From Faecalibacterium taiwanense (GTDB taxonomy: Bacteria; Bacillota; Clostridia; Oscillospirales; Ruminococcaceae), in NCBI RefSeq assembly GCF_036632915.2, contig NZ_CP155552.1:2356001-2420000 (forward strand): DNA of 64,000 nucleotides. Reading direction: 5' to 3'. Position 1 is the first letter of the stretch. Every line of letters starts with the position of its first letter. The position numbers were made by a program, and so were the translations under genes. Positions 8,787 to 30,341 of this stretch are shown piece after piece. The notes below the pieces were generated by a model. It saw only the letters and a program-made list of their open reading frames with translations. It ran no database searches and had not been told where the DNA came from.

Positions 8787-8804
8787 CAAAAAATCATCCA
8801 TTCT

Positions 8805-8890: not shown

Positions 8891-8906
8891 ATTTGATTGT
8901 GACTGT

Positions 8907-14260: not shown

Positions 14261-14574
14261 TGAGACAATTCTCCTTTCAAAACCGTGGGGATGCCGCAGA
14301 ACATCTGCACCACGCACTCTGCCCGTGCGGCCAGCAGGCAGGCAAGCCTGCCCGCCGCCTCGCGGTCTGCGCGCTGTTTGACATCCATCGGCACAACACC
14401 GCCGCCTACCTCGGTGGCGATGAGGATATCGTATTCATGGGCAAGCTTGTCTGCCAAGGCAGGCAGGTCGGCGGCATCGGCAGCCAATACCTGCACGTCC
14501 GAAAGACGCTTGCCGGGAAGTGTTTGCGCAAAGGTGCGCTTGCCGCTGTAGAGCGGCCCGGTAATAAAGATCAT
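14254..14574 (-). CDS. Short CobU-like nucleotide-binding protein, 106 residues
   Basis: It begins with a P-loop (FITGPLYSGKRT, residues 3-14). It ends with blocks that match the C-terminal half of CobU: ATEVGGGVVPMD, REAAGRLACLLAARAE and a CGIP.VLKGE tail. The middle third of normal CobU (about 175 residues) is missing, including the region with the guanylylated histidine. A full-length CobU is encoded less than 1 kb upstream. It may be a compact cobinamide kinase paralogue or a degenerate duplicate, but the intact frame and ATGA coupling to cobS argue that it is used. Confidence 0.75.
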   Translation of the reverse strand: MIFITGPLYSGKRTFAQTLPGKRLSDVQVLAADAADLPALADKLAHEYDILIATEVGGGVVPMDVKQRADREAAGRLACLLAARAECVVQMFCGIPTVLKGELSQC

Positions 14575-15322: not shown

Positions 15323-15840
15323 TTTTCCACTCCTTTATAGTACACGGGGATGCCGCATACCACCCGCACCACCGCATCTGCCCGGGCGGCAAAGGCATTG
15401 TTCACCTGCGCCAGTGCCAGCAGATAGCGGCCTGTGTCACCGGCATAGTCGGCCCCGCCGCTGAACACCTCGTTAGAAACAACGATGAGGTTTTCGCACT
15501 GGGCTGCAAGGCTTTCCAGCCCGTGCAGGATGGCTTTGGCCGCGTTTTCCCCTGCTCCCGCCGGGTCGTACAGCTCGTTGGCGGCAAGGTTGCCAAGGTC
15601 TTCCAGCAAGGCGGTGCCCCGCGCAGGCAGGCGCACATTGTCCAGATGCAAGGGGCACTCCACCGTTTCAAACTGCTTTGCGGCCCGCATTTTGCGGTGC
15701 TTTTCTACCCGGGCGGCACACTCGGCATCCCACACCTGCATGGTGGCAAGATAGTAGCGCGGGCCGGTGGTTTTCAGCACAAGGCTCTCGGCGTATTCAC
15801 TTTTGCCGCTGGCCGCGCCGCCCAGAACCAGCGTCAACAT
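15319..15840 (-). CDS. cobU: Adenosylcobinamide kinase/adenosylcobinamide-phosphate guanylyltransferase
   Basis: A 173-residue bifunctional enzyme that phosphorylates adenosylcobinamide and transfers GMP. The P-loop is LVLGGAASGKSEYAE (residues 4-18), and ARVEKHRKMR near 49 contains the expected guanylylation histidine. SNEVFSGG near 122 and the GIPVYYKG tail complete the family pattern. The start lies inside the end of cobT (7-base overlap). Confidence 0.94.
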   Translation of the reverse strand: MLTLVLGGAASGKSEYAESLVLKTTGPRYYLATMQVWDAECAARVEKHRKMRAAKQFETVECPLHLDNVRLPARGTALLEDLGNLAANELYDPAGAGENAAKAILHGLESLAAQCENLIVVSNEVFSGGADYAGDTGRYLLALAQVNNAFAARADAVVRVVCGIPVYYKGVEK

Positions 15841-16898
15841 TGGGGCGTATACGGCGCAATGCCGCCCTCCGCAAAGGAGTAGCACCCGCCGTATACGGCC
15901 AGCGCCATATCCCACAGCGGGATGCTGGCCACCGCGCCGGTGCCCTCGCCCAGATGCAGCCCCGCCGTAATGATGGGTGCCTTGCCCAGTGCTTCCAGCA
16001 CGATGCGCGCGGCAGGCTCTGCCGAGCAGTGGCTTGCAAACACAGCCTTTGCCGCCGCCGGGCACAGCCGCACGGCGCACAGCGCGGCCACTCCGCTGAT
16101 AAAGCCATCTGCCAGCACCGGCACACCGGCCAGTGCACCGCCCAGAAACACACCGCACAGGCCCGCGATATCAAAGCCGCCAAGCTTTGCAAGAACATCC
16201 AATGTGTCTTCCGGGTCCGGCTCATTGCAAAGGATGCCGCGGCAGATGGCATCCACCTTACGGGCAAGCCCTTCGTCCGAGAGGCCCGCACCGCGCCCGG
16301 TCATAAGCTCCACGGGCTGGCCCAGCAGCACTGCCGCCACCGCGCTGGAGGTGGTGGTATTGCCAATGCCCATTTCACCGGTGGCGATGAGCCTGTAGCC
16401 ATCCTCTGCCAGTTCCCGGGCAAGGGCAATGCCCTCCCCAACGGCCTGCACGGCCTCGGCCCGGCTCATGGCAGGGCCTTGGGTAAAATCCGCCGTGCCT
16501 GCGGCAATGCGGCAGCTGCGCACGCCGGGCACCGGTTCGCCTGCCATGCCCATATCCACGGGCAGAACATCGCAGTGGGCCGTGCGGGCCATCTGGCACA
16601 CACTGGTGCGCCGCATGGCAAGGTTTTCGGCCACGGCACGGGTCACTTCCTGCCCGGTCTGGCTCACGCCCTGCGCCACCACGCCGTTATCCGCGCAGAG
16701 CACCACCACCACCCGGCGGGAAAGATCAAGCTCCGCACTGCCGGTAAGGGCGGCGGCATCCTCCAGCATGGTCTCCAGCCGGCCCAACCCGCCCAGAGGC
16801 TTTGCAAGGCTGGCCCAGTGGGCGTGTGCCGCCGCGCGGGCAGCTTCGTTGGCAGGGGTGATACCCGCCAAAAGTGCATTCAGTTCCGTTTCGGTCAT
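15834..16898 (-). CDS. cobT: Nicotinate-nucleotide--dimethylbenzimidazole phosphoribosyltransferase
   Basis: A 354-residue enzyme that activates the lower ligand base to alpha-ribazole phosphate. The catalytic glutamate is in HLGEGTGA near residue 318, and CADNGVVAQGVSQTG and GIGNTTTSSAV match the family. It is followed 7 bases into its end by cobU. No gene for making dimethylbenzimidazole is seen here, so the base is likely salvaged or made elsewhere. Confidence 0.95.
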   Translation of the reverse strand: MTETELNALLAGITPANEAARAAAHAHWASLAKPLGGLGRLETMLEDAAALTGSAELDLSRRVVVVLCADNGVVAQGVSQTGQEVTRAVAENLAMRRTSVCQMARTAHCDVLPVDMGMAGEPVPGVRSCRIAAGTADFTQGPAMSRAEAVQAVGEGIALARELAEDGYRLIATGEMGIGNTTTSSAVAAVLLGQPVELMTGRGAGLSDEGLARKVDAICRGILCNEPDPEDTLDVLAKLGGFDIAGLCGVFLGGALAGVPVLADGFISGVAALCAVRLCPAAAKAVFASHCSAEPAARIVLEALGKAPIITAGLHLGEGTGAVASIPLWDMALAVYGGCYSFAEGGIAPYTPQC

Positions 16899-16903: not shown

Positions 16904-18241
16904 TCATCCTTTTGTTTTGCTGTATCGTTCTGCCGCGCGCACAAAGCGGCCCGGCAGGGGCGTGCCCGCCCAGTATAAATGCGGGAACCCCGCATAGAAA
17001 TTCTCGTTTGCAAAGCCGCATTCCCACTGCATTTTTTCGCTTTTGCAGGCAGTAAATGCAGTGCCGTTTGCGGTGGAATCCCAGTGGTGGAATTCGTGGA
17101 TAGGCAGCGTTTCTCCGGCGCAGAAGAGCATACTGTCCGCCTTGGCGGTCATTTCGGCATAGCCAAAGCGCACCAGCCTTCCCACCCGGATGCCATCGCC
17201 CGGCAGAACATCTGCCATGGGCCACGCCTTACCGTCGGCATCCTCAAGGCTCCGGCCCAGATACAAAAAGCCGCCGCATTCGGCTGCTGTGGGCAGGCCC
17301 GCCTGCACGGCCTGCCGGATGGAAGCCAGCATGGTTTTGTTTTCACTCAGAGTTTTGGCGTACAGCTCCGGGTAGCCGCCGGGCAGATACAGCCCACCTA
17401 TATTTTCCGGCAAAACCGCATCCTGCACCGGGCTGAAAAGCACAAGCTCCGCCCCGGCATCCCGCAGTGCGTCCAGCGTTTCGGCATAGGTAAAGCAGAA
17501 CGCCTCGTCCTTTGCCACCGCAATGCGGACGGATGTGGGTGCAGCTGCTCCCGGCAAAGCTTCCGGCGCAGGCTTTTCGGTCAGCACGGCAAGGCGCTGC
17601 CAATCCAGCACCAGTGCATCGGCCAGCAGGGCGATCTTTTCCTGCAGGTCGGCAATTTCATCTGCAGTCTTCAGGCCGAGGTGTCGGCTTTCTACCGCTG
17701 CCTGCGGCAAATGGGGCAGATAACCCAGCACCGGCAGGCCGGTCTCCCTTTCCAGCAGGGCCTTGAGCATTTTATACAGCTTTTCGGAACAATCATTGAG
17801 CAGGATGCCCGAAACATGGCTGTTTTTGCGGAAGTTCACAAGGCCCTGAATTTGCGCGGCCAGCGTCACGCTGGCACCCTTGGGCTGTACCACCAGCAGC
17901 ACCGGCAGGCCCAGCGTATCCGCCAGTTCCCAAGCGCTGGCACGGGTGGTCAGGCCCTGACCATCATAAAAGCCCATAGCGCCCTCGCACACGGCGGCAC
18001 CATGCCCGGCGGCATAACGGGCAAAAATGGCCCGCACCATATCCCTGTTGGAAAGAAACAGATCCAGATTGTGGCTGTCCACCTGCAGAGCCGAGCGGTG
18101 GAACATGGGGTCGATGTAGTCCGGCCCGCTTTTGAACGCACAGGGGTCGGCCCCGCGCTTTTTCAGCGCCGCCAGCACTGCACAGGCAACAGTGGTCTTG
18201 CCGCTACCGGAAGAAGGCGCGGCGATGAGGAATTGCATCAT
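16904..18241 (-). CDS. cbiA: Cobyrinate a,c-diamide synthase
   Basis: A 445-residue amidase acting on the a and c carboxylates of cobyrinate. The P-loop APSSGSGKTT is at residues 8-17, and the DTHB synthetase-like N domain is followed by a glutamine amidotransferase domain with its catalytic cysteine in AAECGGFLYLG (about residue 320). A second ATG at 18238 is equally possible. It overlaps the CbiET stop. Confidence 0.95.
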   Translation of the reverse strand: MMQFLIAAPSSGSGKTTVACAVLAALKKRGADPCAFKSGPDYIDPMFHRSALQVDSHNLDLFLSNRDMVRAIFARYAAGHGAAVCEGAMGFYDGQGLTTRASAWELADTLGLPVLLVVQPKGASVTLAAQIQGLVNFRKNSHVSGILLNDCSEKLYKMLKALLERETGLPVLGYLPHLPQAAVESRHLGLKTADEIADLQEKIALLADALVLDWQRLAVLTEKPAPEALPGAAAPTSVRIAVAKDEAFCFTYAETLDALRDAGAELVLFSPVQDAVLPENIGGLYLPGGYPELYAKTLSENKTMLASIRQAVQAGLPTAAECGGFLYLGRSLEDADGKAWPMADVLPGDGIRVGRLVRFGYAEMTAKADSMLFCAGETLPIHEFHHWDSTANGTAFTACKSEKMQWECGFANENFYAGFPHLYWAGTPLPGRFVRAAERYSKTKG

Positions 18242-19434
18242 TTACGTGTACCCGTAATGAGGAAGATGGGGTTATTGGCCATGAGCAGGTGCAGTCGGCC
18301 CGCCGGTTTTGTGCGGCTGACGGCGATCTGCGTTACCTCTGCGGTCAGGCCCCGGGCCGTGAGGGCGGCAATGGCAGCGCCCAGCGTTTCCAGCGCAATG
18401 GCCGAAATGCAGATGCGTGCGTTCGGATTCTTGCCGAGCACTTCATCCAGCACGGCTTCCATGCCGCCTTTGGTGCCGCCGATGAACACGGCATCCGGCG
18501 CAGGCAGGTCTGCCAGCACATCCGGTGCGCGGCCCTCGATGAGGATGAGGTTGCAAGCATGGAACTTTGCCCGGTTTTTACGGATCAGTTCACAGGCATC
18601 CGGTTCACACTCCACGGCGTAAACGCGGCCTTTGGGTGCCGCCAGCGCAAGCTCCACGCTCACACTGCCGGTGCCTGCGCCCACATCCCACAGAGTGTCG
18701 GTGGGCATTACCGCCAGCTTTGCCAGCGCAGCAGCGCGCACCTCCTGCTTGGTCATGGGCACCTCGCTCCGAATGAAGCTTTCGTCCGGGAAGCCCGGCG
18801 CACGCAGCTGCGGCAGATCAAAGTTTTCCACCAGAAGCACGCTGAGTGGTGCAAAGCTCTGCCCCGCCAGCTCTGCAGCAGAACCGTAGCGGATGGCTTC
18901 CGCCTCGGTGCCAAGGTTTTCGCCCACCACGCCGTGGGCTTCGCCCATACCGGCATCGGTCAGCTTCTGGCACAGAGAGGCGGGCGTTTCCGTGCCGCCG
19001 GTGAGGAAGAACACCGAACGGTTCATCATGCACTCGGCCACCGGGTCGCAGGCGCAGCCATGGGCCGAGACCAGCTTCCAGTCCTGCCACGGTCGGCCCA
19101 ACGCCGCTGAAAGCAGCTGGATGCTGGAAACGCCCGGATACACCCGCGCGGGGATGCCCAGCGCCCGCAGCGGCGTGAGCAGACCGGACGCACCGGAGTA
19201 AAATCCGGTATCGCCGCTGTAAAGCACGGCAGCATCCTGCCCGGGGTTTTGTGCCAGTGTTTCCAGAATGTCAGCGGGCTGGTAGAGCGCGAACTGCCGG
19301 GCCGTGCAGTCTGCAGGCAGGCCCGCCAGCAGCCGCTTTGCACCGAACACAAGGCCCGCACTGCGCACAGCCTGCTGCGCCTGCGCCGAAAGGGCTTTCC
19401 ATTTTCCGCTGCCCATGCCGATCAGTGTGACCAT
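18238..19434 (-). CDS. cbiET: CbiE-CbiT fusion, cobalt-precorrin-7 C5/C15-methyltransferase and decarboxylase
   Basis: A 398-residue two-domain protein. The N-terminal 190 residues are a tetrapyrrole methylase (CbiE: TLIGMGSGKW, then the SGDTGFYSGASG loop). The C-terminal half is a class I SAM methyltransferase/decarboxylase (CbiT: WDVGAGTGSVSVELAL). This CobL-like fusion is common. The start at 19434 follows AAGGAG; an ATG six codons earlier would place the ribosome site inside the gene. Confidence 0.93.
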   Translation of the reverse strand: MVTLIGMGSGKWKALSAQAQQAVRSAGLVFGAKRLLAGLPADCTARQFALYQPADILETLAQNPGQDAAVLYSGDTGFYSGASGLLTPLRALGIPARVYPGVSSIQLLSAALGRPWQDWKLVSAHGCACDPVAECMMNRSVFFLTGGTETPASLCQKLTDAGMGEAHGVVGENLGTEAEAIRYGSAAELAGQSFAPLSVLLVENFDLPQLRAPGFPDESFIRSEVPMTKQEVRAAALAKLAVMPTDTLWDVGAGTGSVSVELALAAPKGRVYAVECEPDACELIRKNRAKFHACNLILIEGRAPDVLADLPAPDAVFIGGTKGGMEAVLDEVLGKNPNARICISAIALETLGAAIAALTARGLTAEVTQIAVSRTKPAGRLHLLMANNPIFLITGTRK

Positions 19435-20168
19435 TGCAAAATCTCCTTGCAATACGCTAAAATTTGTGTTTCCGTCTCGCCAGTTTCCGGCGGGCGGCGC
19501 AGCACCACCAGCTGTGCGCCGGTATCGGCAGCGGCCTGCACCTTCTCGGCAAAGCCGCCCGCTGCGCCGCCGTCCTTGGTGACGAGGTACCGGATCTGGA
19601 ACTGTGTGATCAACGCCTTATTCAGCGCCAGACTGAACGGCCCCTGCATGGCAATGATGTTCCGGTGCGGGACATTGGCCGCTTCACAGGCGGCAATGCC
19701 CTCCGGCGTGGGCAGGACGCGCGGGTAAAGCCGCGCCGGTTCCAGCCCGGCAAACACAGCCAGCTCCTTGGCACCGGTGGCAAGCAGGATATTGCCCTCT
19801 GTCCCGGCCAGATATTCTGCAGTCTGCGCTGCTGTTTCAAACACCGCACAGCCGGGCGGCAAGGGGCTTTGCGCACGCAGCAGGCGGCGGTATTCCACGC
19901 CCGCCTGCACCGCTGCAGCGCGGATGTTCCTGGTGGCATCCACTGCATAAGGGTGGGTGGCATCCACGCAGAGATCAGCTCCCGCCAGCAATGCCGCCAT
20001 GGCATCCGGCTGCAGCCGCCCGGCGTGCACCGTGATGCCCGCCATTTCGCCCTGCTCCTCGGCCCCCAGCGGCGTTGCCACGCACACCGTTACCGCAACG
20101 CCAAGCTCTGCCAGCTTTTGGGAAAAGCGACGGCCCTCGGTGGTGCCGCTGAACACGACCGCCTTCAC
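19422..20168 (-). CDS. cbiJ: Cobalt-precorrin-6A reductase
   Basis: A 248-residue NAD(P)H-dependent reductase of the CbiJ/CobK family. The N-terminal VVFSGTTEGR and the middle DATHPYAVDATRN blocks are diagnostic. It overlaps cbiET by 13 bases and cbiH by 4. Confidence 0.94.
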   Translation of the reverse strand: MKAVVFSGTTEGRRFSQKLAELGVAVTVCVATPLGAEEQGEMAGITVHAGRLQPDAMAALLAGADLCVDATHPYAVDATRNIRAAAVQAGVEYRRLLRAQSPLPPGCAVFETAAQTAEYLAGTEGNILLATGAKELAVFAGLEPARLYPRVLPTPEGIAACEAANVPHRNIIAMQGPFSLALNKALITQFQIRYLVTKDGGAAGGFAEKVQAAADTGAQLVVLRRPPETGETETQILAYCKEILQWSH

Positions 20169-20932
20169 TTACGGTACCCCCGCGGCGTGACCATCCGGCC
20201 CGAAAGGGCGCGGGTATTGCTGTTGCCGATATACACGGTGGTGAACATATCCACCGGCGTGTTTTCCAGCTCGGCCAGCGTCAGCACCCGGGCGCTCTGG
20301 CCCTCGCGGCCAATGTTGCGCACAAGGCCGCAGACCGTCTCCGGCCCCTTGCCGTTTGCGCGCAGGATGCGCACCGCCTTTTGCAGGTAGTCCGGCCTGC
20401 CCTTGGAAGAGGGATTGTACAGTGCCACGCAGAAATCGCCCTGCGCGGCGCAGGCCAGCCGCTTTTCGATGACCTCCCACGGGGTAAGCCGGTCGGAAAG
20501 GGAGATCACGCAGAAATCGTGGGCCAGCGGCGCGCCCAGCACAGCCCCGCCGCTGAGGGCGGCCGTAAGGCCGGGCACCACTTCTACGGCAACGTCCGGG
20601 TAATCCTGCGCCAGTTCCAGCACAGGGCTGGCCATGCCGTAAACGCCTGCGTCGCCGCTGCACACCATCACCACGCGCCTACCGGTATTCGCCTTTTCCA
20701 GCGCCCAGCGGCAGCGGTCGATCTCCTTGGTCATGCCGGTGGAATAATATTCCTCACATGGGAACTCCGGCTCGATCAGATCAAGATAAAGTTTATAGCC
20801 GCAGATGGCATCTGCGTGTTCCAGAACGTTCTGGGCTTCCTGCGTCAGGTAGTAAACATCTCCGGGGCCAATGCCCACCACGTAGACTACCTTTTCCGGT
20901 TCGTCGATTTCAAATTTCATCGGATCAAACAT
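20165..20932 (-). CDS. cbiH: Cobalt-precorrin-3B C17-methyltransferase
   Basis: A 255-residue SAM-dependent tetrapyrrole methylase that contracts the ring. VVGIGPGDVYYLT lies near residue 18, and a GDAGVYGMA loop and the DFCVISLSDRLTPW block are visible; the last is typical of the C17 enzyme. The start at 20932 is fixed by GGAGGTG directly upstream. It overlaps cbiG by 8 bases. Confidence 0.94.
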   Translation of the reverse strand: MFDPMKFEIDEPEKVVYVVGIGPGDVYYLTQEAQNVLEHADAICGYKLYLDLIEPEFPCEEYYSTGMTKEIDRCRWALEKANTGRRVVMVCSGDAGVYGMASPVLELAQDYPDVAVEVVPGLTAALSGGAVLGAPLAHDFCVISLSDRLTPWEVIEKRLACAAQGDFCVALYNPSSKGRPDYLQKAVRILRANGKGPETVCGLVRNIGREGQSARVLTLAELENTPVDMFTTVYIGNSNTRALSGRMVTPRGYRK

Positions 20933-21920
20933 TCTGCCACCTCCAGTCCGGGGCATAGGGCCGCACGGCCAGCGCAAAGGTCACGCCGGTATGGGCATAT
21001 TTGTGAAAAACGAGTGTCCCGTCTGCGGCCAGCACTGCCGACCGTTCACAGACATTGTCCACGCCGGTAACGCTCTGCACAAAGGCCGAAGGCGTAAAGC
21101 TGCCGGGGGCGGCACGCAGCTGTTCCGCTGTGAAAAACTGCACCGGCCAGCTGTGGCTCTTACAGAAGGTCAGCAGGCCCGCCTCGTTTTGTTTTAAGTC
21201 GATGCTTGCCGCCGCCGTGATGCATTGCGGCGCAAGGCGGTTCTGGGCACAGAAAGCTGCAAAGGCTTCGGCCAGCGTTTCGGTGCTGGTGCCGCGTTTG
21301 CAGCCCACGCCCAGCACGCCGATGCGCGGCACCAGATGCAGCGCATCCCCCGCCGGGCAGAGGGTGAGGGCAAAGTCCGGGTCATCTCCCGCCGTGATCC
21401 CATCAGGCGGTGCACCAGCAATGGGCCAGTCGGATGCAAACTGCACCGTTTTGCCCGCCAGCAGTGCACCGCTGACAAGCTTGATGCGCTCCGGCTCCAG
21501 CACGGTGCAGTTCTGGTGCTTTGCCCACTCGTCCACCGCAAACACACCGTTTGCGTCGGTGGCTGTGGTGATCACCGGCACCGCACCGCACACAGCGGCA
21601 AGCGCCCGGGCAAGGTCGTTGGCACCGCCCAGGTGGCCTGAGAGGATGGGCACGGCAAAGCGGCCGCACTCGTCCAGCACCACAACGGCAGGGTCCTGCG
21701 CCTTGCTTTGGCAGTGGGGCGCAATGGCCCGCACCGCAATGCCCACAGCACCTACAAAAACAAGGGCATCGCTCCCGGCAAACTGGCGGGCCGTCCAATC
21801 GGCAAGGTGCACCTGCCCGGCTTCATGGCCGCAGCGGGCCACGCTGCCGGGATATGCCGCCGCCAGTTTTTGGGCCAGTGCAAGGCCCTTTGCCGTAAAG
21901 GCCAGATAGGCGCGGGTCAC
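20925..21920 (-). CDS. cbiG: Cobalt-precorrin-5A hydrolase
   Basis: A 331-residue protein that opens the lactone and releases acetaldehyde during anaerobic ring contraction. The N domain contains SGHLGGANDLARAL near residue 95 and the C domain starts with GVLGVGCKRGTSTE near 208, the CbiG pattern. It is coupled to cbiF by a 4-base overlap. Confidence 0.93.
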   Translation of the reverse strand: MTRAYLAFTAKGLALAQKLAAAYPGSVARCGHEAGQVHLADWTARQFAGSDALVFVGAVGIAVRAIAPHCQSKAQDPAVVVLDECGRFAVPILSGHLGGANDLARALAAVCGAVPVITTATDANGVFAVDEWAKHQNCTVLEPERIKLVSGALLAGKTVQFASDWPIAGAPPDGITAGDDPDFALTLCPAGDALHLVPRIGVLGVGCKRGTSTETLAEAFAAFCAQNRLAPQCITAAASIDLKQNEAGLLTFCKSHSWPVQFFTAEQLRAAPGSFTPSAFVQSVTGVDNVCERSAVLAADGTLVFHKYAHTGVTFALAVRPYAPDWRWQNV

Positions 21921-22678
21921 TGGTCTGTCCCCTTGCGGAACTCGGTGGTAAAGGCCGGGTCGTAGAGCTTGCTGCGCTCATAATTCCGCCCCAGAAAGCC
22001 GCCTGCCACGATGAGCGCCGTTTTGGTGATGCCCGCTGCATGAACGCTTTCCGCCAGCGTACCTACGGTGCAGCGCACCGTTTTTTCCTCCGGCCATGTG
22101 GCCTTATACACCACCGCTGCCGGGGTATCCGGCGTATAGGCACCGCCTTCCAGAAGCGCCTGCTGTACTTTGTCCACAAGGCCGATGGATAGGAAAATGA
22201 CCATCGTTGCCCCGTGGGCGGCAAGGCTTGCCAGCTTTTCTTTTTCCGGCACCGGGGTGCGGCCCTCCATGCGGGTGATGATGACGGTCTGGCTGACGGT
22301 GGGCAGCGTGTACTCTGCATTCAGTGCCGCCGCTGCGCCGCAGAAGCTGGACACACCGGGGGTATCATCGTAGGGAATGCCCTCGGCGTCCAGCACATCC
22401 ATCTGCTCCCGGATGGCACCGTAAAGGCAGGGGTCGCCGGTGTGCAGGCGCACGGTGATCTTACCCGCAGCTTCCATCTGCCGCATCACATCCAGCACCT
22501 GCTCCAGCGTCATTTCAGCGCTGTTATAAATGGCGCAGTCTGCCTTTGCAAGGCCCAGCAGGGCCGGGTTTACCAGACTGCCCGCATAGATGATGCAGTC
22601 GGCTTTCTGCAGCAGGGCCGCGCCCCGCCGGGTGATGAGGTCCGGTGCGCCGGGGCCTGCACCAACAAAATGTACCAT
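21917..22678 (-). CDS. cbiF: Cobalt-precorrin-4 C11-methyltransferase
   Basis: A 253-residue tetrapyrrole methylase. It starts with VHFVGAGPGAPDLIT and contains RLHTGDPCLYGAIREQ near residue 78, both hallmarks of the C11 enzyme. Four bases separate its start from the cbiL stop. Confidence 0.95.
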   Translation of the reverse strand: MVHFVGAGPGAPDLITRRGAALLQKADCIIYAGSLVNPALLGLAKADCAIYNSAEMTLEQVLDVMRQMEAAGKITVRLHTGDPCLYGAIREQMDVLDAEGIPYDDTPGVSSFCGAAAALNAEYTLPTVSQTVIITRMEGRTPVPEKEKLASLAAHGATMVIFLSIGLVDKVQQALLEGGAYTPDTPAAVVYKATWPEEKTVRCTVGTLAESVHAAGITKTALIVAGGFLGRNYERSKLYDPAFTTEFRKGTDQ

Positions 22679-22682: not shown

Positions 22683-23387
22683 TTACTCCTTTACCAAAAC
22701 GGTGGCAAAATAACCGGCCTGTTCCTGCGGCCGCTCAAGGGAAAGATCCGGGTAGACCCGCTCGTCCGGCAGACCGCAGTTGCACACAAGTGCGCTTTTT
22801 TTCAGCTTATCTGCCTGCTGCAGGGCATCCAATAAGACAGGCAATTGCCTTCCGGTTTTCATCAATACCTTGGTGCCGGGCATTTCCAGCACGCGGTCTG
22901 TCCAGCCGCCGGGCGCAATGGTAAGCGGCGTATCCATGCCGCCGGTCAGCGGCACATTCAGCCGCGCCGCCGCCGCACAAAAGCTGGGCACGCCTGCCGC
23001 CATGGCGGTGGCATAACCCCCGGCCTGCAAGATCTCCTGCAGGTAACCAAAGGTGGCATAGATGGAAACATCACCGATGTTCAGCATGGCAACGTCCTGC
23101 CCGGCATCCAGATACTGCTGCACCGCGGCGGCTGCTTTTTCGTGCGAAGCCGCCAGCGCAGCCGGGTCACGGCTCATGGCAAAGTACAGCGGGACGATGG
23201 TCTTGCCGTCCAGCGCTTCTCCCAGCGCACTGCGGGCGATGTCCAGCGCCAGCATCTGGCCGGAAGCAGTCTGCGGCGCGGCCAGCACCGGGCACTGCCG
23301 GATGAGCCGCACAGCCTGCAGCGTCATCAGCTCCGGGTCGCCGGGGCCGACGCTGACACCGTAAAATGTACCTTTCAGTTCTGCCAT
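22683..23387 (-). CDS. cbiL: Cobalt-factor II/cobalt-precorrin-2 C20-methyltransferase
   Basis: A 234-residue tetrapyrrole methylase. YGVSVGPGDPELMTLQA is at residues 9-25, the LNIGDVSIYATFGY loop is near 100, and MKTGRQLP lies near 174. The length matches CbiL. Its start overlaps the end of the ATPase-CbiD fusion by 13 bases. Confidence 0.94.
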   Translation of the reverse strand: MAELKGTFYGVSVGPGDPELMTLQAVRLIRQCPVLAAPQTASGQMLALDIARSALGEALDGKTIVPLYFAMSRDPAALAASHEKAAAAVQQYLDAGQDVAMLNIGDVSIYATFGYLQEILQAGGYATAMAAGVPSFCAAAARLNVPLTGGMDTPLTIAPGGWTDRVLEMPGTKVLMKTGRQLPVLLDALQQADKLKKSALVCNCGLPDERVYPDLSLERPQEQAGYFATVLVKE

Positions 23388-25327
23388 TCCTGCATCAGCT
23401 CCTTTGCCGTTTTTGTCTCGCCCAGCGGGCCGTGCTGGTTGGAGAACAGCACCGCGCCCACCCGGAACGCCCCGCCTGCCCGTCGGTCCAGATGCATCTG
23501 GATGGCGGCAAGGATGCTTTCCAGCACCGGTGCACGCAGCTGCGCGCCGTCCAGAATGTCAAGGCAGGCATCGGTGGTGGCGGCATCCATCAGGGCGGCG
23601 CACACCTCATGCGCGGCACCGCACAGCGCCGCATGGGCGCAAAACACTTCAGCGCGGCCATCCGCCGTGTGGGAGTGGGTGTTCATGACCCCTGCTGCCA
23701 GCTTGCAGAGCTTGCCCACGTGGCCTACCAGAAGCACTTCCTCAAATTTGGCCGTGGCAGCCATATCCAGCGTATCCCCGATAAAGTTGGAGGTCTTGAC
23801 CACCGGGAACCGCTCGAACTGCGGCAGAGCGCTGGCCAGATAATCCAGCCCGTAGTTGCCGGGGGCCAGCACCAGCCGCCGGGGGCCGGGGGCATTTTTT
23901 GCACGCAGTGCGGCCTGATTCATTTCCAGCTGGATGGTATCCAGAATGGCCTGCTGGCTCATGGGTTCCACGATGCCGCTGGTGCCCAGAATGGAAAGCC
24001 CGCCCTCCACCCCGATGTGCGGGTTGAAGGTGCGCTTTGCCGTCTCGGCACCGCCTTCCACAGAGATGGTCACCGCAAAGCCGCCGGTGTAGGCAGCATT
24101 TTCAGCTTCCCGTTCCAGCGCTTCGGCAATCATCTGGCGGGGCACATGGTTGATGGCGGCCTCGCCTACGGGTTGGTCAAGGCCGGGCTTCGTCACCCGG
24201 CCCACCCCCTCGCCGCCAAGGATGCGCACGCCGGGGGCATCCGGTTCCAGTACCACTGATGCGACCACCGGCAGGCCCGTAGTCACATCCACATCGTCGC
24301 CGCCGTCCTTGCGGATGGCACATGCGGCACCTGTGTCCGTGCTGCGGCACCAGAGGGGAGCCACCTCCACCACAATGCCCTTGGGCGTGCGCAGAGCCAC
24401 CGTTTCCGGTTCGCGGCCGGTCAGCAGCAGACGCGCCGCCCCTGCAGCCCCCAGCGCGGCACAGGTGCCGGTGGTATAGCCGCAGCGCAGCAACTTCTGC
24501 CCGCTGCGGACGTAATGCTCAAACTGAGGTTTTCCGGCGGGTGCCTTTTCGGCTTCCGGCTCCGGTGTGCCGAACAGAGCCGTGTACTGCTGTTCGGTCA
24601 GGCCGTACAGGGTGCGGATGTTCTCCGGCTGAAACGCCTGTTCCGGGGTCAGCACGCCGGAAACACCACCGGGCGAAACGCACACCACCGTGTCCGCTAT
24701 TTTTTCAGCCAATTCCAGCTCGTGCAGGCTCAGGATCACCGCCAGCTGACCGGTATGGGCCAGCTCCTTTAAAATGGTGAGCAGCTCGATCTTGCCCTTG
24801 ATATCCAGAAAAGAGGTCGGCTCGTCCAGCAGGATCACTTCCGGCTGTTGGCACAGTGCCCGGGCCAGCAGGATGCGCTGGCGCTGGCCGTCGCTGATGC
24901 GGTTAAAATCCCGGTCTGCAAGGTGTGCCGCACCCACCAGCTCCAAAGCTCTGTGCACCTGCTGCCTGTCCTCGGCAGACAAAATGCCCAGCCGTCCGGT
25001 GTAGGGATAGCGCCCAGCCGAAACAAAGTCAAAGCAGGTGGTCAGCTCCATCCGGCGGCTATGCGGGGCCATGAGGGCCAGCTTCTGCGCCCGCTGGGTA
25101 CCGGTGTAATCGGCAAGGTTTCTGCCTTCCAGCAGCACTGTGCCGCCCATGGGGGCCAGCTGGCCCGCCAGTGTGCGCAGTAAGGTGGATTTGCCTGCGC
25201 CGTTGGGGCCAATGAGAGTCAGGATCTGGCCCGGCTGCACCCCGAGGCAAATATCCGAGAGCAGCGGTGTCTTGCCGTAGCCGATGGCAAGCTCCCGCGC
25301 AGTGCAAAGTGCTTTTTCGTTCATCAT
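23375..25327 (-). CDS. cbiD: Fusion protein: corrinoid/siderophore-type ABC ATPase joined to CbiD methyltransferase
   Basis: One uninterrupted 650-residue frame. Residues 1-250 are an ABC ATPase of the FepC/BtuD class: Walker A GPNGAGKST at 40-48, signature ISDGQRQR at about 144-151, Walker B VILLDEP at about 164-170 and the H-loop histidine near 202. After a short Pro/Glu/Ala linker (about 252-272), residues 274-650 are a complete CbiD, cobalt-precorrin-5B C1-methyltransferase, beginning LLRCGYTTGTCAA. The start (ATG ATG at 25327/25324) follows GGGAGGG and overlaps the permease stop. The two halves serve corrinoid uptake and corrin synthesis. The fusion is unusual (see findings); no internal start is evident. 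Confidence 0.9.
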   Translation of the reverse strand: MMNEKALCTARELAIGYGKTPLLSDICLGVQPGQILTLIGPNGAGKSTLLRTLAGQLAPMGGTVLLEGRNLADYTGTQRAQKLALMAPHSRRMELTTCFDFVSAGRYPYTGRLGILSAEDRQQVHRALELVGAAHLADRDFNRISDGQRQRILLARALCQQPEVILLDEPTSFLDIKGKIELLTILKELAHTGQLAVILSLHELELAEKIADTVVCVSPGGVSGVLTPEQAFQPENIRTLYGLTEQQYTALFGTPEPEAEKAPAGKPQFEHYVRSGQKLLRCGYTTGTCAALGAAGAARLLLTGREPETVALRTPKGIVVEVAPLWCRSTDTGAACAIRKDGGDDVDVTTGLPVVASVVLEPDAPGVRILGGEGVGRVTKPGLDQPVGEAAINHVPRQMIAEALEREAENAAYTGGFAVTISVEGGAETAKRTFNPHIGVEGGLSILGTSGIVEPMSQQAILDTIQLEMNQAALRAKNAPGPRRLVLAPGNYGLDYLASALPQFERFPVVKTSNFIGDTLDMAATAKFEEVLLVGHVGKLCKLAAGVMNTHSHTADGRAEVFCAHAALCGAAHEVCAALMDAATTDACLDILDGAQLRAPVLESILAAIQMHLDRRAGGAFRVGAVLFSNQHGPLGETKTAKELMQEWQN

Positions 25328-26343
25328 GCGCCCTCCCGCTCTGAATTGCGCCGCACCAGCAGCCAGATGACCACCGGCGCGCCGAACACGGCCGTGACCG
25401 AGCTGATGGACAGCTCCGTGGGCGCGAACAGACTGCGGGCCAGCAGGTCGCAGAACAGGCAGAAAGCCGCACCGCCCAAGCAGCACCCCGGCAGCACATA
25501 CAGCGGCTTTGCGCTGCCCAGCAGCTGCTTGACAAGGTGCGGCACCGCGATGCCTACAAAGGAGATCGGCCCCGCAAAGGCAGTGACACAGGCCGCCAGC
25601 AGGCTGGATAGCAGCACCAGCGCTGCCGAGAAAGGCTTGACATTCACGCCCACGCTGCGGGCGTACTCCTCGCCCATCTGATAGGCGGCCATGGGCTTGG
25701 AAAGCAGAAAGGATGCCGCCAGCGCAGGCAGCACCACCAGTGCCGCAGCCTGTACATTGGCCCATGTCACGCCGGAAAAGCTGCCCTGCGACCAGTTGTG
25801 CAGATTGACGATGTTGGAGTCCTGTGCAAAGGCCACCACGATATCGGTGATGGCGGAGCAGATATAGCCGATCATCACACCGCAGATGACCAGAATGCTC
25901 ATGCGCTGCACCCGCCGGGCCACCGCCAGCACAAAGGCCATGGAAGCCATGGCACCCGCAAAGGCAGCCGCGATCATCGTGGCCGAGCTGGTCAGCATCC
26001 CGCGGTCCAGAAACACCACCATGGTCAGGGCCACCGCCAGCTTTGCGCCGCTGGAAACGCCCATAACAAATGGCCCGGCAATGGGGTTTGCAAAAAAGGT
26101 CTGCAGAAGGTAGCCTGCCGCGCTGAGGGCTGCCCCCAACAGCGCCGCCATGACCGCGCGGGGCAGGCGCAGCTGCAGGATGATGTTCCCCGCAAGCGCA
26201 TCGCCGCCCTTGCCCAGCAGCGCCGTCAGCACCGCACCCGGTGCAAGGGATACGCTGCCCCAGAACAGGTTCAGCGCAAAAAGCACAGCCACGGCTGCCG
26301 CAAGGGCAATATAGGCGGCTGCAAGGCGTCTGGTACGGGTCAT
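25324..26343 (-). CDS. btuC: ABC transporter permease, BtuC/FecCD family
   Basis: A 339-residue polytopic membrane protein of the iron-siderophore/vitamin B12 permease family, with about ten hydrophobic segments. The GSVSLAPGAVLTALLG region near residue 30 and a cytoplasmic GEEYARSVGVNV loop (the ATPase-contacting helix pair) near 222 are typical. It lies between the binding lipoprotein and the ATPase-CbiD fusion. The genomic setting suggests cobinamide or cobalamin rather than iron. Confidence 0.9.
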   Translation of the reverse strand: MTRTRRLAAAYIALAAAVAVLFALNLFWGSVSLAPGAVLTALLGKGGDALAGNIILQLRLPRAVMAALLGAALSAAGYLLQTFFANPIAGPFVMGVSSGAKLAVALTMVVFLDRGMLTSSATMIAAAFAGAMASMAFVLAVARRVQRMSILVICGVMIGYICSAITDIVVAFAQDSNIVNLHNWSQGSFSGVTWANVQAAALVVLPALAASFLLSKPMAAYQMGEEYARSVGVNVKPFSAALVLLSSLLAACVTAFAGPISFVGIAVPHLVKQLLGSAKPLYVLPGCCLGGAAFCLFCDLLARSLFAPTELSISSVTAVFGAPVVIWLLVRRNSEREGA

Positions 26344-26373: not shown

Positions 26374-27513
26374 TTAATCCACATGGGTGAGGAATTTCAG
26401 GGTACTGGCGGCAGGTGTGCCCTTGGTAAACACCCGGTTCATGTCCACGATCAGGTCTGCTAGCTCCATGCTCTGCTGGAACAGGCTCTGGGTGGTGCAC
26501 CACACCTGACCGTTCTGCACCGCTTTGAATTCGTTCAGCAGCGGGAAACGCTCGGTCAGCTGGCTCACCGATGCGATCATGCCCTCGATGGCGCTGTTGT
26601 AGATGAGCACATCGGCATCCTTTGCACCTGCATAGAAGTCCTCAAGCGGCAGGTTCATGGTAGCAAGGCTGTTACCATTGTCCGTCAGGTCCGCAAAGAC
26701 ATAGCTGCCGCCTGCCATTTCGATCATGCGGGCCACATAGTCACTGCCCTTGCGCACAGTGGCAAGGTTGTTGGTGGTCAGCGAGAAGAAGGCACAGCTT
26801 TTTCCCGTGGGTTCCTGCGAGAGGATGGGCTGAACGGCTGTCTCCTGCGCGGAAAACACCTGCTCGGCCTGTTCTTCCCTGCCCAGCAGGATGCCGTAAA
26901 GCTTGATCCACTCCATGCGGGCCAGCGGGTCGCTCTCGTAGCTGGAACGCTCCACCAGCACCGGGATGCCAAAGTGTTCCAGCTGCTCCTTTACCTCCGG
27001 CGTGTGCAGGATCATGGTATTCTCAATGGCAAGGCGGCAGCCCGCTGCCAGGATCTGCTCGTAATCCGGGGCGCTGTACTTGCCTGCATACGCGATTTTT
27101 CCCTCTTCCATGGCCTGCTTCACCTCAGGCAGATACCAGCCCTCGGCCTTGGTGCCGGAAAAGGCCACGCTGTCCAGTGCGTCCAGATGTAAAAGCAGAT
27201 CCATCACCGAGGTGGAGACCAGATAAATATTCTCCACCGGCTGGCGCAGCACAGTCACATCAGCAGGCAGACCGTCCACCTCCGCAGCATCTTCCGGCAC
27301 AACAAGGAACCGTGCATCTGACTCCGCGATGGTCAGCATGGTATAGCCGCCCTCATAGCAGTCCGCTGTGAACTGCTGTGCATAGTCCAGCTTGTAATGA
27401 TGGGAAAAAACAAGACTTTCCGTATTGGCAGGTTGAGTCTTGCTGCCGCAGCCGGTCAGCGTCAGCGCCGCAGCAGGGATCAGTTTCAGAAATTGGTTGC
27501 GAGTGATTTTCAT
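26374..27513 (-). CDS. btuF: ABC transporter substrate-binding lipoprotein, BtuF/FepB-like
   Basis: A 379-residue periplasmic-binding-type protein anchored as a lipoprotein. The signal peptide ends in a lipobox (LTLTGC, cysteine about 22). TRNQFLKLI near the start resembles a twin-arginine motif with one arginine missing. The two-lobe helical-backbone fold is suggested by length and by EQILAAGCRLAI and GYTMLTI blocks. It is the first gene of the importer; the next gene starts about 30 bases later. The substrate is inferred from context to be a corrinoid. Confidence 0.87.
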   Translation of the reverse strand: MKITRNQFLKLIPAAALTLTGCGSKTQPANTESLVFSHHYKLDYAQQFTADCYEGGYTMLTIAESDARFLVVPEDAAEVDGLPADVTVLRQPVENIYLVSTSVMDLLLHLDALDSVAFSGTKAEGWYLPEVKQAMEEGKIAYAGKYSAPDYEQILAAGCRLAIENTMILHTPEVKEQLEHFGIPVLVERSSYESDPLARMEWIKLYGILLGREEQAEQVFSAQETAVQPILSQEPTGKSCAFFSLTTNNLATVRKGSDYVARMIEMAGGSYVFADLTDNGNSLATMNLPLEDFYAGAKDADVLIYNSAIEGMIASVSQLTERFPLLNEFKAVQNGQVWCTTQSLFQQSMELADLIVDMNRVFTKGTPAASTLKFLTHVD

Positions 27514-27707: not shown

Positions 27708-27741
27708 GAGTATGCCCAGAGCGTGAGCGGAGGGCATTCTC
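27708..27741 (-). terminator. Possible terminator after the two-domain lipoprotein
   Basis: GAGAATGCCC/GGGCATACTC (one mismatch) hairpin overlapping the stop codon, followed on the minus strand by AT-rich sequence with TTTTTTATTT about 20 bases later. Confidence 0.4.
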
Positions 27742-28600
27742 AATCGTTAGCCTTCAGACTTGCAGAATCAAAGGTCAGCGTATACTCGATCTCGTGGGGG
27801 GTGCTCATGGCAACGGTATCGGCGGTGACATCCAGTGCGGTATCCAGCGCCGATACCGGAATTTCAAAGGTGGAATTGCCCTCGGTGTTAGTGGGCAAAT
27901 ACTTCTCGCCGTCCACGATCATATAATCATAGTTCGGGCTGCTCCACACGATGGTAGCAGTCATTTTGCCGTCTGCCACGGTCAGGGCGGCGGGGCTCTC
28001 CACGGTGGCACGGCCGGAGCCGCCCTCCAGCGTCACATCACAGGTGTAGGTGCCGTCTGCCGGGGTCTCGGCTTCCGCAGCCTTTTCCACGGCATCACGC
28101 ACGCTGACGACATGGTCGTACCACTTGCCCTTGGTGCCCAGAATGGCAAGGTCAAAGTCCGTATCCACCGCAGTGACCGGAATGTCAAAGCCGTACACCT
28201 CCTCCGAGGTGCCGTCGGAATAGGTGACGGTATCTGTGGTGGGCTGCAGCCAGTCGGCCTCGTGGTCGGCGGCATCGGAAGCCTTGCCCAGATACAGGTT
28301 GACGATATGGGTGGAAGCAAGGCTGACATGGAAGGTCATCTGGCCGTTCTCCACGGTCAGGGTGCCCTTGCCGTCGCAGGCTTCGTTGGCGTGGAACATG
28401 CTGCTGTCGGTGTCAAACTCGGCGGTATACACGCCATCCGGCAAAGCGGCGGTCTCAGCGGCAGAAGAAGCCACGGAAGAAGCAGCCTCCGAGCTGGCAG
28501 CACTGGAAGCTGCAGAAGATGCCGTGGAAGAAGCGCCGCAGCCCACCAGCAGACTCAATGCCAGAGAAGCAGCGACAACACAGGAAAAAACGCGTTTCAT
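27740..28600 (-). CDS. Surface lipoprotein with two immunoglobulin-like (NEAT-like) repeats
   Basis: A 286-residue lipoprotein. The lipobox LLVGC sits at residues 17-21, followed by a low-complexity Ser/Ala linker (about 22-50). Two beta-rich repeats follow, each opening with a Pro/Ala-DG.YT pattern (LPDGVYTAEF near 53, PADGTYTCDV near 180). The second contains WSSPNYDYMIVDGEKY. Such repeats recall haem-binding NEAT or iron-transport-associated domains, but I cannot assign a family. Placed between the chelatase lipoprotein and the corrinoid importer, it may bind a tetrapyrrole, corrinoid or cobalt outside the membrane. It has its own promoter. Confidence 0.75.
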   Translation of the reverse strand: MKRVFSCVVAASLALSLLVGCGASSTASSAASSAASSEAASSVASSAAETAALPDGVYTAEFDTDSSMFHANEACDGKGTLTVENGQMTFHVSLASTHIVNLYLGKASDAADHEADWLQPTTDTVTYSDGTSEEVYGFDIPVTAVDTDFDLAILGTKGKWYDHVVSVRDAVEKAAEAETPADGTYTCDVTLEGGSGRATVESPAALTVADGKMTATIVWSSPNYDYMIVDGEKYLPTNTEGNSTFEIPVSALDTALDVTADTVAMSTPHEIEYTLTFDSASLKAND

Positions 28601-28717: not shown

Positions 28718-29950
28718 TCAACCGTTCAGAGAATCGATCGCCGCCTTGGTGTGGGCGACATACAGCTTCTGGACATCCTCGATCCCACCCAGACCAGCGA
28801 TCTGGCAGTCGATGCTGTCGAAAGCACCGGAAGCCTTGAACTGGCTCAGCCAGGAATCGGCATCCTCACCGGCCATATCGTTGTTGGCGTGATCGCCGGC
28901 AACCACCATCAACGGGCGCAGAATGACCTTGGTGTAGCCCGCAGCCTTAACAGCCTCGATGACGTTCTCGCAGGCAGTCTCTTCCGGCTTGCCCTCAACG
29001 GTGCCAATGAACACATTGTCGTAGCCCAGAGTCTGCATAGTGGTCTGCATCTGGCTGTAGCTCACCTTTGCGGTGTGCGAGGTGCCGTGGCCCATAAAAA
29101 CAAAGGCGACCTTGTCCACAGCAGCGGCATCCAGACTGTCGTAGCCGGCTTCCTTCACGGCAGCAGCGGTGACAGCCTTGGCAACGTCTTCCTTATCCTG
29201 ATTGATGATGGTGGCATCGGAACCGACCTCGCCCAGCAGGGGCTCAGCCACAGCGACAGATTCAAACTTGTCGCGGTAGGTGTCGATCATTTCCATCATC
29301 TCGTCGTACTCAGCACCGTGCATCAGGTGGGTGGGCTGGACGACCAGATTCTTCACGCCGTTTTCCACAGCGCGGTCCATGGCCTGCTGCATGTTGTCGA
29401 TCTTTTCGCCGTCACGAGCCTGCACATGGTTGATGATGATCTGTGCGGTGAATGCGCGGCGCACAGACCAATCCGGGTATGCGGCCTGCAGAGCATCCTC
29501 GATGCCCTTGATGTCCTTCACGCGGCTGTCGTTGAAGGAGGTGCCGAAGGAGACCACCAGCAGCTCGTTGTCGCCAATGTCGTCCTGATTGCGGGCATCG
29601 TCCTTGGAAGCATCACCGGTGTCACGGCCAAAGTAGTCGGGGTCGGCGTTCTCACCTTCCACCAGTTCCTTCTGGGTGTCGGTCAGGGCATCCCATGCAG
29701 CCTTGGCGGCTTCGCACTGGGCATCGGTATCCTCATTGCGCTCCTGCACATAGATGGCATCGATCAGGTCTGCCACGTTCTTTGCTGCCATTTCGTCAGC
29801 CTCCTCGCTGCTCGCTTCGCTGGAAGCGGAAGACGCAGCGGTGCTGGATGCAGTGCCGGAAGCAGCCCCGCCGCAGCCGGTGAGCACGCCGGCGCACAGA
29901 GCCAGAGCCGTAACAGCTGCGGCCAGCTTTTTGGTTTCGATCTTTCTCAT
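28718..29950 (-). CDS. cbiK: CbiK-type sirohydrochlorin cobaltochelatase, predicted lipoprotein
   Basis: A 410-residue protein. Residues 1-26 form a lipoprotein signal (ALCAGVLTGC), then comes a Ser/Ala-rich linker and a region of about 80 residues with no recognised domain. From about residue 125 (LLVVSFGTSFNDSR) it is a class II chelatase. Candidate metal-binding histidines are in PTHLMHGAEYDEM, FMGHGTSHT and VAGDHANND, matching CbiK. The lipobox implies anchoring outside the membrane, whereas chelation in synthesis should occur in the cytoplasm; see findings. The start at 29950 follows GGAAAGGA. An adenosylcobalamin riboswitch and terminator precede it. Confidence 0.88.
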   Translation of the reverse strand: MRKIETKKLAAAVTALALCAGVLTGCGGAASGTASSTAASSASSEASSEEADEMAAKNVADLIDAIYVQERNEDTDAQCEAAKAAWDALTDTQKELVEGENADPDYFGRDTGDASKDDARNQDDIGDNELLVVSFGTSFNDSRVKDIKGIEDALQAAYPDWSVRRAFTAQIIINHVQARDGEKIDNMQQAMDRAVENGVKNLVVQPTHLMHGAEYDEMMEMIDTYRDKFESVAVAEPLLGEVGSDATIINQDKEDVAKAVTAAAVKEAGYDSLDAAAVDKVAFVFMGHGTSHTAKVSYSQMQTTMQTLGYDNVFIGTVEGKPEETACENVIEAVKAAGYTKVILRPLMVVAGDHANNDMAGEDADSWLSQFKASGAFDSIDCQIAGLGGIEDVQKLYVAHTKAAIDSLNG

Positions 29951-30067: not shown

Positions 30068-30124
30068 TTGTTTCAGGGCTTTTTGGTACAACCAATTCCT
30101 CGTGATCTGGGGTTTGCACCCCCG

Positions 30125-30325
30125 TACCAACAGCAGGCAGGTTTCCTGACTGAAAGATCGCCGCCCGTCATCTCCTTCCCAGAGCAAAAGCTCCAGTGGC
30201 TGGTGCAAAGCACCCTGATGCGGACTCCCTTATCACAGTGACGAGATCGTGCGGGATCTGCACCCGCTTCCCTTTTACCCTTTCCGCCGTGCAGTGCATC
30301 GGCAAAAGGCACCTGCTGTTTTTCT
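30125..30325 (-). promoter_or_regulatory. Adenosylcobalamin riboswitch
   Basis: The minus strand contains the ordered core blocks GGTGCC, AAAAGGGAAGCGGGTG, the ATCCCGC/CGAT arm, GTCACTGTGA, GCCACTGG, GGGAAGG, GACGGGCG and GTCAGGAAACCTGCC. These are diagnostic for the B12 aptamer. It should turn off cbiK, and possibly the downstream cluster by read-through, when adenosylcobalamin is plentiful. Confidence 0.96.
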
Positions 30326-30341
30326 GTTCAGTTCGTCCGGC

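Follow-up and report, generated by a model that had tools for sequence, protein, structure and literature searches.

An importer ATPase fused to the B12-synthesis enzyme CbiD in Faecalibacterium: a conserved gene in an operon that may import a tetrapyrrole precursor

We analysed a stretch of 64,000 nucleotides from Faecalibacterium taiwanense, a member of an abundant human gut genus (contig NZ_CP155552.1, positions 2,356,001 to 2,420,000; hereafter the window, whose own numbering is used throughout). A single gene on its minus strand joins the ATPase of an ATP-binding cassette (ABC) importer to CbiD, a methyltransferase of corrin ring synthesis. The gene lies in an operon that is headed by a cobalamin riboswitch and encodes, in this order, a CbiK-type cobaltochelatase, a NEAT-like lipoprotein, a substrate-binding protein, a FecCD-type permease, the ATPase–CbiD fusion and CbiL, followed by CbiF, CbiG, CbiH, CbiJ, CbiET, CbiA, CobT, CobU, CobS, CobC, CbiB, CobD, CbiP and CbiC (Table 1). 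By best match, the corrin ring and nucleotide-loop genes are all present in this one operon; CobT, CbiB and CbiP score above their NCBIfam cut-offs, and CbiG, CbiC, CobU, CobS, CobC and CobD are named from best matches below the cut-off.

An earlier note on this DNA, made from the letters alone, had described one 650-residue frame with an importer ATPase and a complete CbiD on either side of a short linker, between a permease gene and cbiL, and the family searches bear this out. Pfam places ABC_tran (PF00005) at residues 23–172 (109.8 bits, cut-off 25) and CbiD at residues 280–546 (293.9 bits, cut-off 25), and the NCBIfam equivalog model TIGR00312 (cbiD) matches over its full length at residues 280–635, scoring 391.3 bits (cut-off 200). 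By this family assignment the second half is a full-length CbiD, with the predicted activity of a cobalt-precorrin-5B C1-methyltransferase. It has the same fold as 1sr8, the CbiD of Archaeoglobus fulgidus, which appears at rank 36 of the Foldseek matches. A Shine–Dalgarno-like GGAGGG stands upstream of the start codon of the fusion. We found no second, separate CbiD in this genome, where only the first of 59 matches covers the CbiD half.

The ATPase half can be classed as that of a type II importer, as PF00005, a FecCD permease and a Peripla_BP_2 binding protein occur together in one operon. The earlier note had called it corrinoid-type, with all motifs present; the importer ATPase stands, the corrinoid type is not secured, and the statement on motifs was slightly too strong. 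The signature motif is ISDGQ in the window and ISDGQ or VSDGQ across the fused ATPases, and the Q-loop glutamine, judged by eye against what we take to be the ABC consensus, is not evident (residues 83–93, about 25049–25081, reading ALMAPHSRR or ALMLPHTRR in the fused proteins; the unfused relatives have, for example, TTE or MTD at this position). The NCBIfam corrinoid ATPase model, NF007082, gives the fusion 187.1 bits (cut-off 537), and the models for F420-, Fe- and heme-type ATPases give similar scores. The best match by sequence in the PDB is FhuC, an iron-hydroxamate ATPase, and the best Foldseek matches are the heme-importer ATPases HmuV and BhuV. As far as sequence goes, neither the permease nor the ATPase can be assigned to heme, hydroxamate or B12.

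We modelled the fusion with AlphaFold from 26 aligned sequences. The mean predicted local distance difference test score (pLDDT) was 84.1 and the predicted template modelling score (pTM) 0.47, with pLDDT below 50 at residues 255–268. The model thus predicts two folded domains on a flexible link, with an undefined mutual orientation. A disordered linker and an undefined domain arrangement fit a tether better than an allosteric gate.

The earlier note had suggested looking for the same architecture elsewhere and had named its absence from all other genomes among the possible refutations; this refutation does not hold. Of the 31 genus genomes searched, 14 carry the fusion as a single full-length frame (75–100% identity, our own genome counted), and eight of these 14 are single-contig assemblies. 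The other genomes have an unfused CbiD (10), only a relative of the ATPase (2) or neither at an E-value of 1e-40 (5). Named records with the fusion are from Faecalibacterium prausnitzii, F. longum, F. hattorii, two Faecalibacterium sp. and Gemmiger formicilis, the isolate of the last being the only one beyond the genus set; the nearest fused relative, Faecalibacterium sp. I4-3-84, is 98% identical. Among the best 120 of the 7994 database proteins that passed the E-value, 119 match across 99–100% of the fusion and one across 84%, and the database cluster that holds the fusion has 13,035 member sequences. In a family sample of 148 genomes, which included just one other member of the genus, the fusion occurs in our own genome only. 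Conservation as one frame rules out chance as well as an assembly error: that the junction is an assembly or frameshift artefact is refuted by these independent assemblies, the Gemmiger isolate and the database cluster, and we give this explanation practically no weight.

ABC and CbiD motifs are common to all 14 fused proteins, and between them lies a non-conserved linker core of 8–21 amino acids. Unfused CbiD proteins start with M/V-x-FEHY or similar; all 14 fused proteins have P-x-FEHY instead. There is no conserved internal start for a separate CbiD among the 14 fused genes. A lone in-frame GTG or TTG lies within 40 residues before the GYTTGT motif in eight of them, at five different places and, by eye, nowhere with a well-spaced ribosome site, so that it is not conserved; single species may make a CbiD from an internal start. 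Both halves of the fusion are under purifying selection: over 91 pairs each, the median ratio of non-synonymous to synonymous substitution rates (dN/dS) is 0.21 in the ATPase half and 0.17 in the CbiD half, with 0.27 for the linker (53 of the 91 pairs usable). In the CbiD tree all fused sequences fall into a single clade, with no unfused genome inside it, and they do so again in the ATPase tree, Gemmiger included; the Shimodaira–Hasegawa-like approximate likelihood ratio (SH-aLRT) support is 100 in each. A further proposal of the earlier note is supported: in this conserved fusion the amount of CbiD is coupled to that of the ATPase, and CbiD would sit at the membrane.

The unfused relatives suggest how the fusion may have arisen. 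Twenty of the 22 unfused ATPases that we read carry about 110 extra C-terminal residues, most of which start like VFVIGGGGSG; in the fusion this extension is gone and CbiD begins at its place. The extension belongs to NF007082, as residues 8–345 of one relative (L134) match positions 4–349 of the 402 in the model, and NF007082 is the best NCBIfam match of the two unfused relatives scanned (244.1 and 199.2 bits, cut-off 537). It is predicted to form an alternating alpha/beta structure with four strands, and it has no Pfam family. Its glycine-rich start prompted a comparison with the precorrin-2 dehydrogenase (SirC-like) domain, which we rejected: the hhalign probability was 3.3%, Pfam returned nothing for five of six extension pieces and one match below cut-off for the sixth, a PDB sequence search with one piece gave weak matches only (E 0.36 and worse), and all 50 Foldseek matches listed were ABC ATPases, the query being a weak model (5 sequences, mean pLDDT 68.5).

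In six other Bacillota loci (L210, L213–L215, L217 and L218) the same cassette is followed by a separate cbiD, which overlaps or abuts the ATPase gene in another frame; the ATPase of L210 has no recognisable C-terminal extension. Since these six do not group with the fused ATPases in the tree, they show that the arrangement occurs and do not demonstrate a direct ancestor. Within the genus, CbiK stands directly before cbiD, by position, in eight of the 10 genomes with an unfused CbiD (four of these loci were inspected), and two unfused genomes have the cassette and cbiD on different contigs. The simplest path to the fusion is probably a deletion that took out the C-terminal domain of the ATPase and put the following cbiD in frame. 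Such a fusion is ordinary as evolutionary events go; what is unusual is where it happened.

We looked for the enzymes that would provide the first substrate of the pathway. HemB and HemC were each found in none of the 31 genus genomes, with controls positive in 11 of 14 named genomes in both cases. Our own genome, one contig of 98% completeness, has five tetrapyrrole methylases, which are CbiF, CbiL, CbiH, CbiE and a 16S rRNA methyltransferase (TIGR00096 above cut-off). As all five are assigned, no uroporphyrinogen-III methyltransferase is left in this genome, and by these searches precorrin-2 cannot be made by the known route. In lacking these early genes, HemB and HemC as well as any uroporphyrinogen-III methyltransferase, the genome resembles a tetrapyrrole precursor salvager. 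Each of the 13 other fused genomes has the methylases of its operon plus one elsewhere, the 16S rRNA identity of the latter being established in our own genome only. The absence of uroporphyrinogen-III methyltransferase does not hold genus-wide: one metagenome-assembled genome (G171), with no CbiD, HemB or HemC match, has a CysG siroheme synthase above cut-off (locus L188, 1426–2733), which is either a true oddity or a stray contig.

In seven of the 14 fused genomes CbiL is absent as well, leaving four methylases each; in all seven the gene is missing between cbiD and cbiF. These genomes form one subclade (SH-aLRT 97), four of them are single-contig, and the Gemmiger operon also lacks CbiL. 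In the CbiL-less group, dN/dS lies at 0.06–0.21 for 17 other genes of the cassette and the pathway (CbiP and CbiC left out; the least query cover was 0.79 for the NEAT-like gene and 0.82 for CobS). Stops were flagged in CbiJ at two loci, within the last four residues, and in CbiB at two loci, both among the CbiL-less seven, at residue 14 of an over-long query; we counted these as alignment ends. Either the precursor imported by the CbiL-less genomes is already methylated at C20, or another enzyme performs this step. All 14 fused genomes, our own included, have CbiH.

The CbiK of the window is predicted to be exported. It has about 100 additional N-terminal residues with a lipoprotein signal, judged by eye. 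PF06180 places it in the CbiK family, and it retains His208 and His292, which align with the histidines of 1qgo that we take to be the metal-site pair; with the NCBIfam equivalog NF047852 it scores 189.9 bits, below the cut-off of 400. It is the one CbiK match in our own genome, by a single family search that may miss a distant CbiX; the search was also positive in four control genomes below the family cut-off, i.e. it reaches some distant relatives. In the relatives, where lipoprotein signals were called by a custom pattern and not by a trained predictor, CbiK carries such a signal in all 13 other fused genomes. We also chose 17 unfused loci in which a CbiK gene lies near the gene for this ATPase on the same contig. 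The order CbiK, NEAT-like protein, substrate-binding protein, permease and ATPase is kept in 15 of them, and a lipobox-type signal is present on CbiK in 16, the seventeenth being a fragment. A cobalamin riboswitch accompanies 16 of the 17 unfused cassettes and all six fused loci scanned, in addition to the window. CbiK genes that stand directly before cbiD have no export signal in six of seven cases, the seventh being ambiguous. In one genome without HemC (G164), a FecCD permease and an ATPase are followed immediately by a CbiK that lacks an export signal and by cbiD.

Table 1. The riboswitch-led operon of the window: positions, strand and supporting matches
Feature	Position	Strand	Evidence
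Cobalamin riboswitch, head of operon	30119..30331	minus	RF00174, 98.2 bits, gathering score 31.5
CbiK-type cobaltochelatase, predicted lipoprotein signal MRKIETKK...LTGC	28718..29950	minus	PF06180, 237.4 bits, cut-off 26.2
NEAT-like lipoprotein, LVGC lipobox by eye	27740..28600	minus	PF05031, 36.2 bits, cut-off 32.8
Substrate-binding lipoprotein, Peripla_BP_2, LTGC lipobox by eye	26374..27513	minus	PF01497, 90.9 bits
FecCD-type permease	25324..26343	minus	PF01032, 264 bits; nearest solved relatives HmuU, FhuB, BtuC
ATPase–CbiD fusion gene	23375..25327	minus	ATG at 25327, stop 23375–23377, 650 residues, no internal stops
ABC ATPase half, residues 1–252	24572..25327	minus	PF00005; Foldseek best matches HmuV/BhuV
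Linker, residues ~253–268, Pro/Ala/Lys/Glu-rich	24524..24571	minus	alignment of 14 fused proteins; pLDDT <50
CbiD half, residues 269–650 and stop	23375..24523	minus	TIGR00312; Foldseek match 1sr8
CbiL, C20-methyltransferase	22683..23387	minus	TIGR01467, 175 bits, cut-off 163
CbiF	21917..22678	minus	TIGR01465, 336.6 bits, cut-off 259.65
CbiG	20925..21920	minus	best NCBIfam match NF004466, 240.8 bits, below cut-off 326
CbiH	20165..20977	minus	TIGR01466, 301 bits, cut-off 246
CbiJ	19422..20168	minus	TIGR00715, 157.4 bits, cut-off 129.85
CbiET	18238..19452	minus	TIGR02467 and TIGR02469 above cut-off
CbiA/CobB	16904..18241	minus	NF002204, 429.8 bits, cut-off 254
CobT, CobU, CobS, CobC, CbiB, CobD, CbiP, CbiC	9483..16898	minus	NCBIfam scans

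Sequence searches of the PDB gave no usable match for the binding protein and none for the NEAT-like protein. Among seven other ATPase loci inspected in our own genome, one adjoins a FecCD permease; no Rfam riboswitch was found in the 14 kb around it, and a genome-wide survey of such systems was not made. The window also contains a thiamine pyrophosphate (TPP) riboswitch (8791–8898, minus), a skipping-rope RNA (4499–4578, minus) and a match to the SpF59 small RNA family (31734–31783, plus).

On balance, and with modest confidence, we favour an importer that brings in a tetrapyrrole precursor of B12, charged with cobalt by the surface CbiK, with a conserved fusion that tethers a step of corrin ring methylation at the point of entry. 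A pathway that is kept and constrained and has no source of its first substrate is presumably fed from outside. Because uroporphyrinogen-III methylation was not found and CbiH is kept in all fused genomes examined, the cargo would lie between these steps. In genomes that retain CbiL it would be sirohydrochlorin (factor II); in those that have lost CbiL it is possibly factor III. As the only chelatase found is predicted to lie outside, beside the importer, cobalt is likely inserted before entry. In this scheme the surface-anchored CbiK would insert cobalt into scavenged sirohydrochlorin or factor III, the NEAT-like lipoprotein and the binding protein would hand the tetrapyrrole to the dedicated importer, and the fusion would hold CbiD beside the point of entry at the inner membrane face, presumably as two copies per transporter dimer on flexible linkers. 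The gain would be production at a fixed 1:1 ratio and nearness of CbiD to the newly entered ring; the fusion is likely to act as a tether and to equalise dosage. Since CbiL or CbiH, CbiF and CbiG act before CbiD, we do not claim direct channelling. We infer the cargo, the chelation of cobalt and any gain from the fusion from this gene content. The larger point is a cassette of an importer and an exported chelatase that feeds a B12 pathway without a beginning. A bolder version, which we put forward tentatively and regard as rather doubtful, is that B12 synthesis begins outside the cell, with cobalt charging by the surface CbiK, the dedicated importer and the CbiD-carrying ATPase forming one membrane-bound assembly. 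The earlier note had linked the fusion to a cobalamin/cobinamide importer and suggested that incoming corrinoid could sense or gate synthesis, which our analysis does not support; with HemB, HemC and uroporphyrinogen-III methyltransferase not found in our own genome, and a lipoprotein CbiK opening a riboswitch-led operon, the operon looks like a pathway entry point instead.

Several observations weigh against precursor import with a tethered CbiD. The step catalysed by CbiD comes several after the presumed cargo, so that its nearness to the importer would have no obvious kinetic use, and uptake, chelation and localisation are all predicted. The best PDB match of the ATPase by sequence is the iron-hydroxamate protein FhuC. 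In the CbiD tree and the ATPase tree alike, the branch that leads to the fused proteins is long, which fits relaxed constraint as well as new constraint. In place of His292, CbiK has alanine in eight of the 16 readable unfused cassettes and in all six loci with adjacent genes; an unexported CbiK of the genus (L162) has alanine there too. Judged by this residue, the CbiK of these cassettes and adjacent-gene loci may bind rather than insert metal, as a chelatase turning into a binding protein. Among the cassette genomes of the family sample, HemC is kept in four of 16, and in three of these four (G005, G019 and G118) the CbiK search found only the exported CbiK, which a strict model leaves unexplained. 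HemC is lacking from 12 of 16 cassette genomes versus 16 of 36 other genomes with CbiD, a trend only (Fisher p = 0.07, kinship uncorrected). The same ATPase subfamily also occurs without an adjoining CbiK at five loci, so the cargo may be broader, and the importer family may carry several tetrapyrroles. One of these loci (L151, 1–7930, in genome G153) consists of a cobalamin riboswitch, a binding protein, a permease and the ATPase, followed by CbiA, CbiC, CbiJ and CbiB, with CbiC and CbiB named by eye; in this 99% complete genome neither CbiD nor CbiK is matched and there is a single tetrapyrrole methylase, so that its B12 pathway is reduced further still.

A serious alternative for the fusion itself, which we rate only somewhat short of an even prospect, is that it has no function of its own: a deletion joined two proteins that still work apart, and the join was kept because it is harmless. 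This would be compatible with precursor import. The six adjacent-gene loci, where the ATPase and CbiD are encoded by separate genes that overlap or abut, the single origin of the fusion, and the variable length and predicted disorder of the linker, together with the undefined domain arrangement, all agree with it. It sits less easily with the loss of the usual C-terminal domain of the ATPase, and with the absence of both unfused genomes within the fused clade and a conserved internal start; purifying selection on both halves also speaks against it, though it equally fits two independent functions.

For the cargo, the operon could instead encode an ordinary BtuFCD-type importer of corrinoids (cobamide or cobinamide), placed in the B12 regulon by its riboswitch, with the CbiK and NEAT-like lipoproteins helping to catch corrinoids and the CbiD fusion merely matching expression. 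The riboswitch at the head of the operon, the loci where the same ATPase subfamily occurs without CbiK, and the match of unfused relatives to most of NF007082, including its C-terminal part (L134), are in line with this. We nevertheless consider it unlikely, as the NF007082 scores of the fusion (187) and of the unfused relatives (244 and 199) are far under the cut-off of 537, as the exported state of the sole CbiK found and the cassette order in 15 of 17 loci stay unaccounted for, and as it offers no substrate for the constrained cbiH-F-G-D-J-ET genes, given that the searches found no HemB, HemC or uroporphyrinogen-III methyltransferase. Still less probable, in our estimate, is a heme importer whose CbiK-like lipoprotein swaps the metal of heme outside the cell, a mechanism proposed for IhtB/FetB of Porphyromonas gingivalis. 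In its favour, NEAT domains are typically heme binders, the permease is nearest to HmuU and the ATPase fold to HmuV, and the second-best solved relative of CbiK is 9b86, 'Heme-binding protein FetB' (we take IhtB and FetB to be one protein, and 9b86 to be its structure). This idea meets the cobalamin riboswitch in the window, in 16 of 17 unfused cassettes and in all six fused loci, as well as the joining of the cassette to corrin synthesis, by operon and gene fusion here and by its position directly before cbiD in six further loci.

If precursor import is correct, the salvage of tetrapyrrole precursors gains a named candidate transporter, which would to our knowledge be the first importer for a precursor of the B12 ring upstream of corrin formation, and the fusion would be a natural case of an importer subunit and a biosynthetic enzyme as one protein. 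If the cargo is sirohydrochlorin, with or without cobalt, or factor III, this would be a new exchanged metabolite of the gut. There are also consequences for surveys: a rule for recognising B12 producers described in PMC4403557 starts at CbiK/X or CysG and would class a genome of this kind among the producers, when its gene content suggests dependence on a ring made elsewhere. Among the open-access papers listed, at the level of titles and the openings of abstracts, we saw no ABC–CbiD fusion, and searches on exported CbiK, sirohydrochlorin import and precursor salvage brought up nothing on this system.

Several known systems resemble parts of this one. The CbiK of the window shares its family with the cobaltochelatase of structures 2xvx and 2xvy, which we take to be the periplasmic (exported) enzyme of Desulfovibrio vulgaris; we know of no operon that links that enzyme to an importer or to corrin genes. 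Compared with the corrinoid ATPase of NF007082/PRK09536, the fusion has lost the extension, has CbiD in its place and scores far below the cut-off; compared with CbiD itself (TIGR00312; 1sr8), it matches over the full length with the same fold, adds an ABC ATPase at the N terminus and has lost CbiD's own start. In its gene content, a corrin pathway without the early genes, the genome resembles the tetrapyrrole precursor salvagers that Shelton et al. (PMC6461909) describe in 180 species, mostly Firmicutes, and sort into five types, with dependence on 5-aminolaevulinic acid tested in three; a later review (PMC8123684) gives the precorrin-2 salvage type as 0.6% of genomes. The work of Shelton et al. 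differs in that the compound tested is 5-aminolaevulinic acid and its main text mentions neither sirohydrochlorin nor Faecalibacterium; we know of no importer named there.

Closest in design is the IhtA-E system of Porphyromonas gingivalis, in which, as described in PMC10913741, the CbiK-like IhtB is a surface lipoprotein encoded beside a binding protein, a permease and an ATPase. According to a 2026 review (PMC13402209), FetB inserts manganese into protoporphyrin, so an exported relative of CbiK can be an active chelatase. As these sources present it, that system belongs to heme, iron and manganese, includes a TonB-linked outer-membrane receptor and has no link to corrin genes. No TonB-linked receptor gene is present in the Faecalibacterium operon as annotated, and its cassette is set apart from IhtA-E/FetB by the cobalamin riboswitch, the NEAT-like lipoprotein and the fusion to CbiD.

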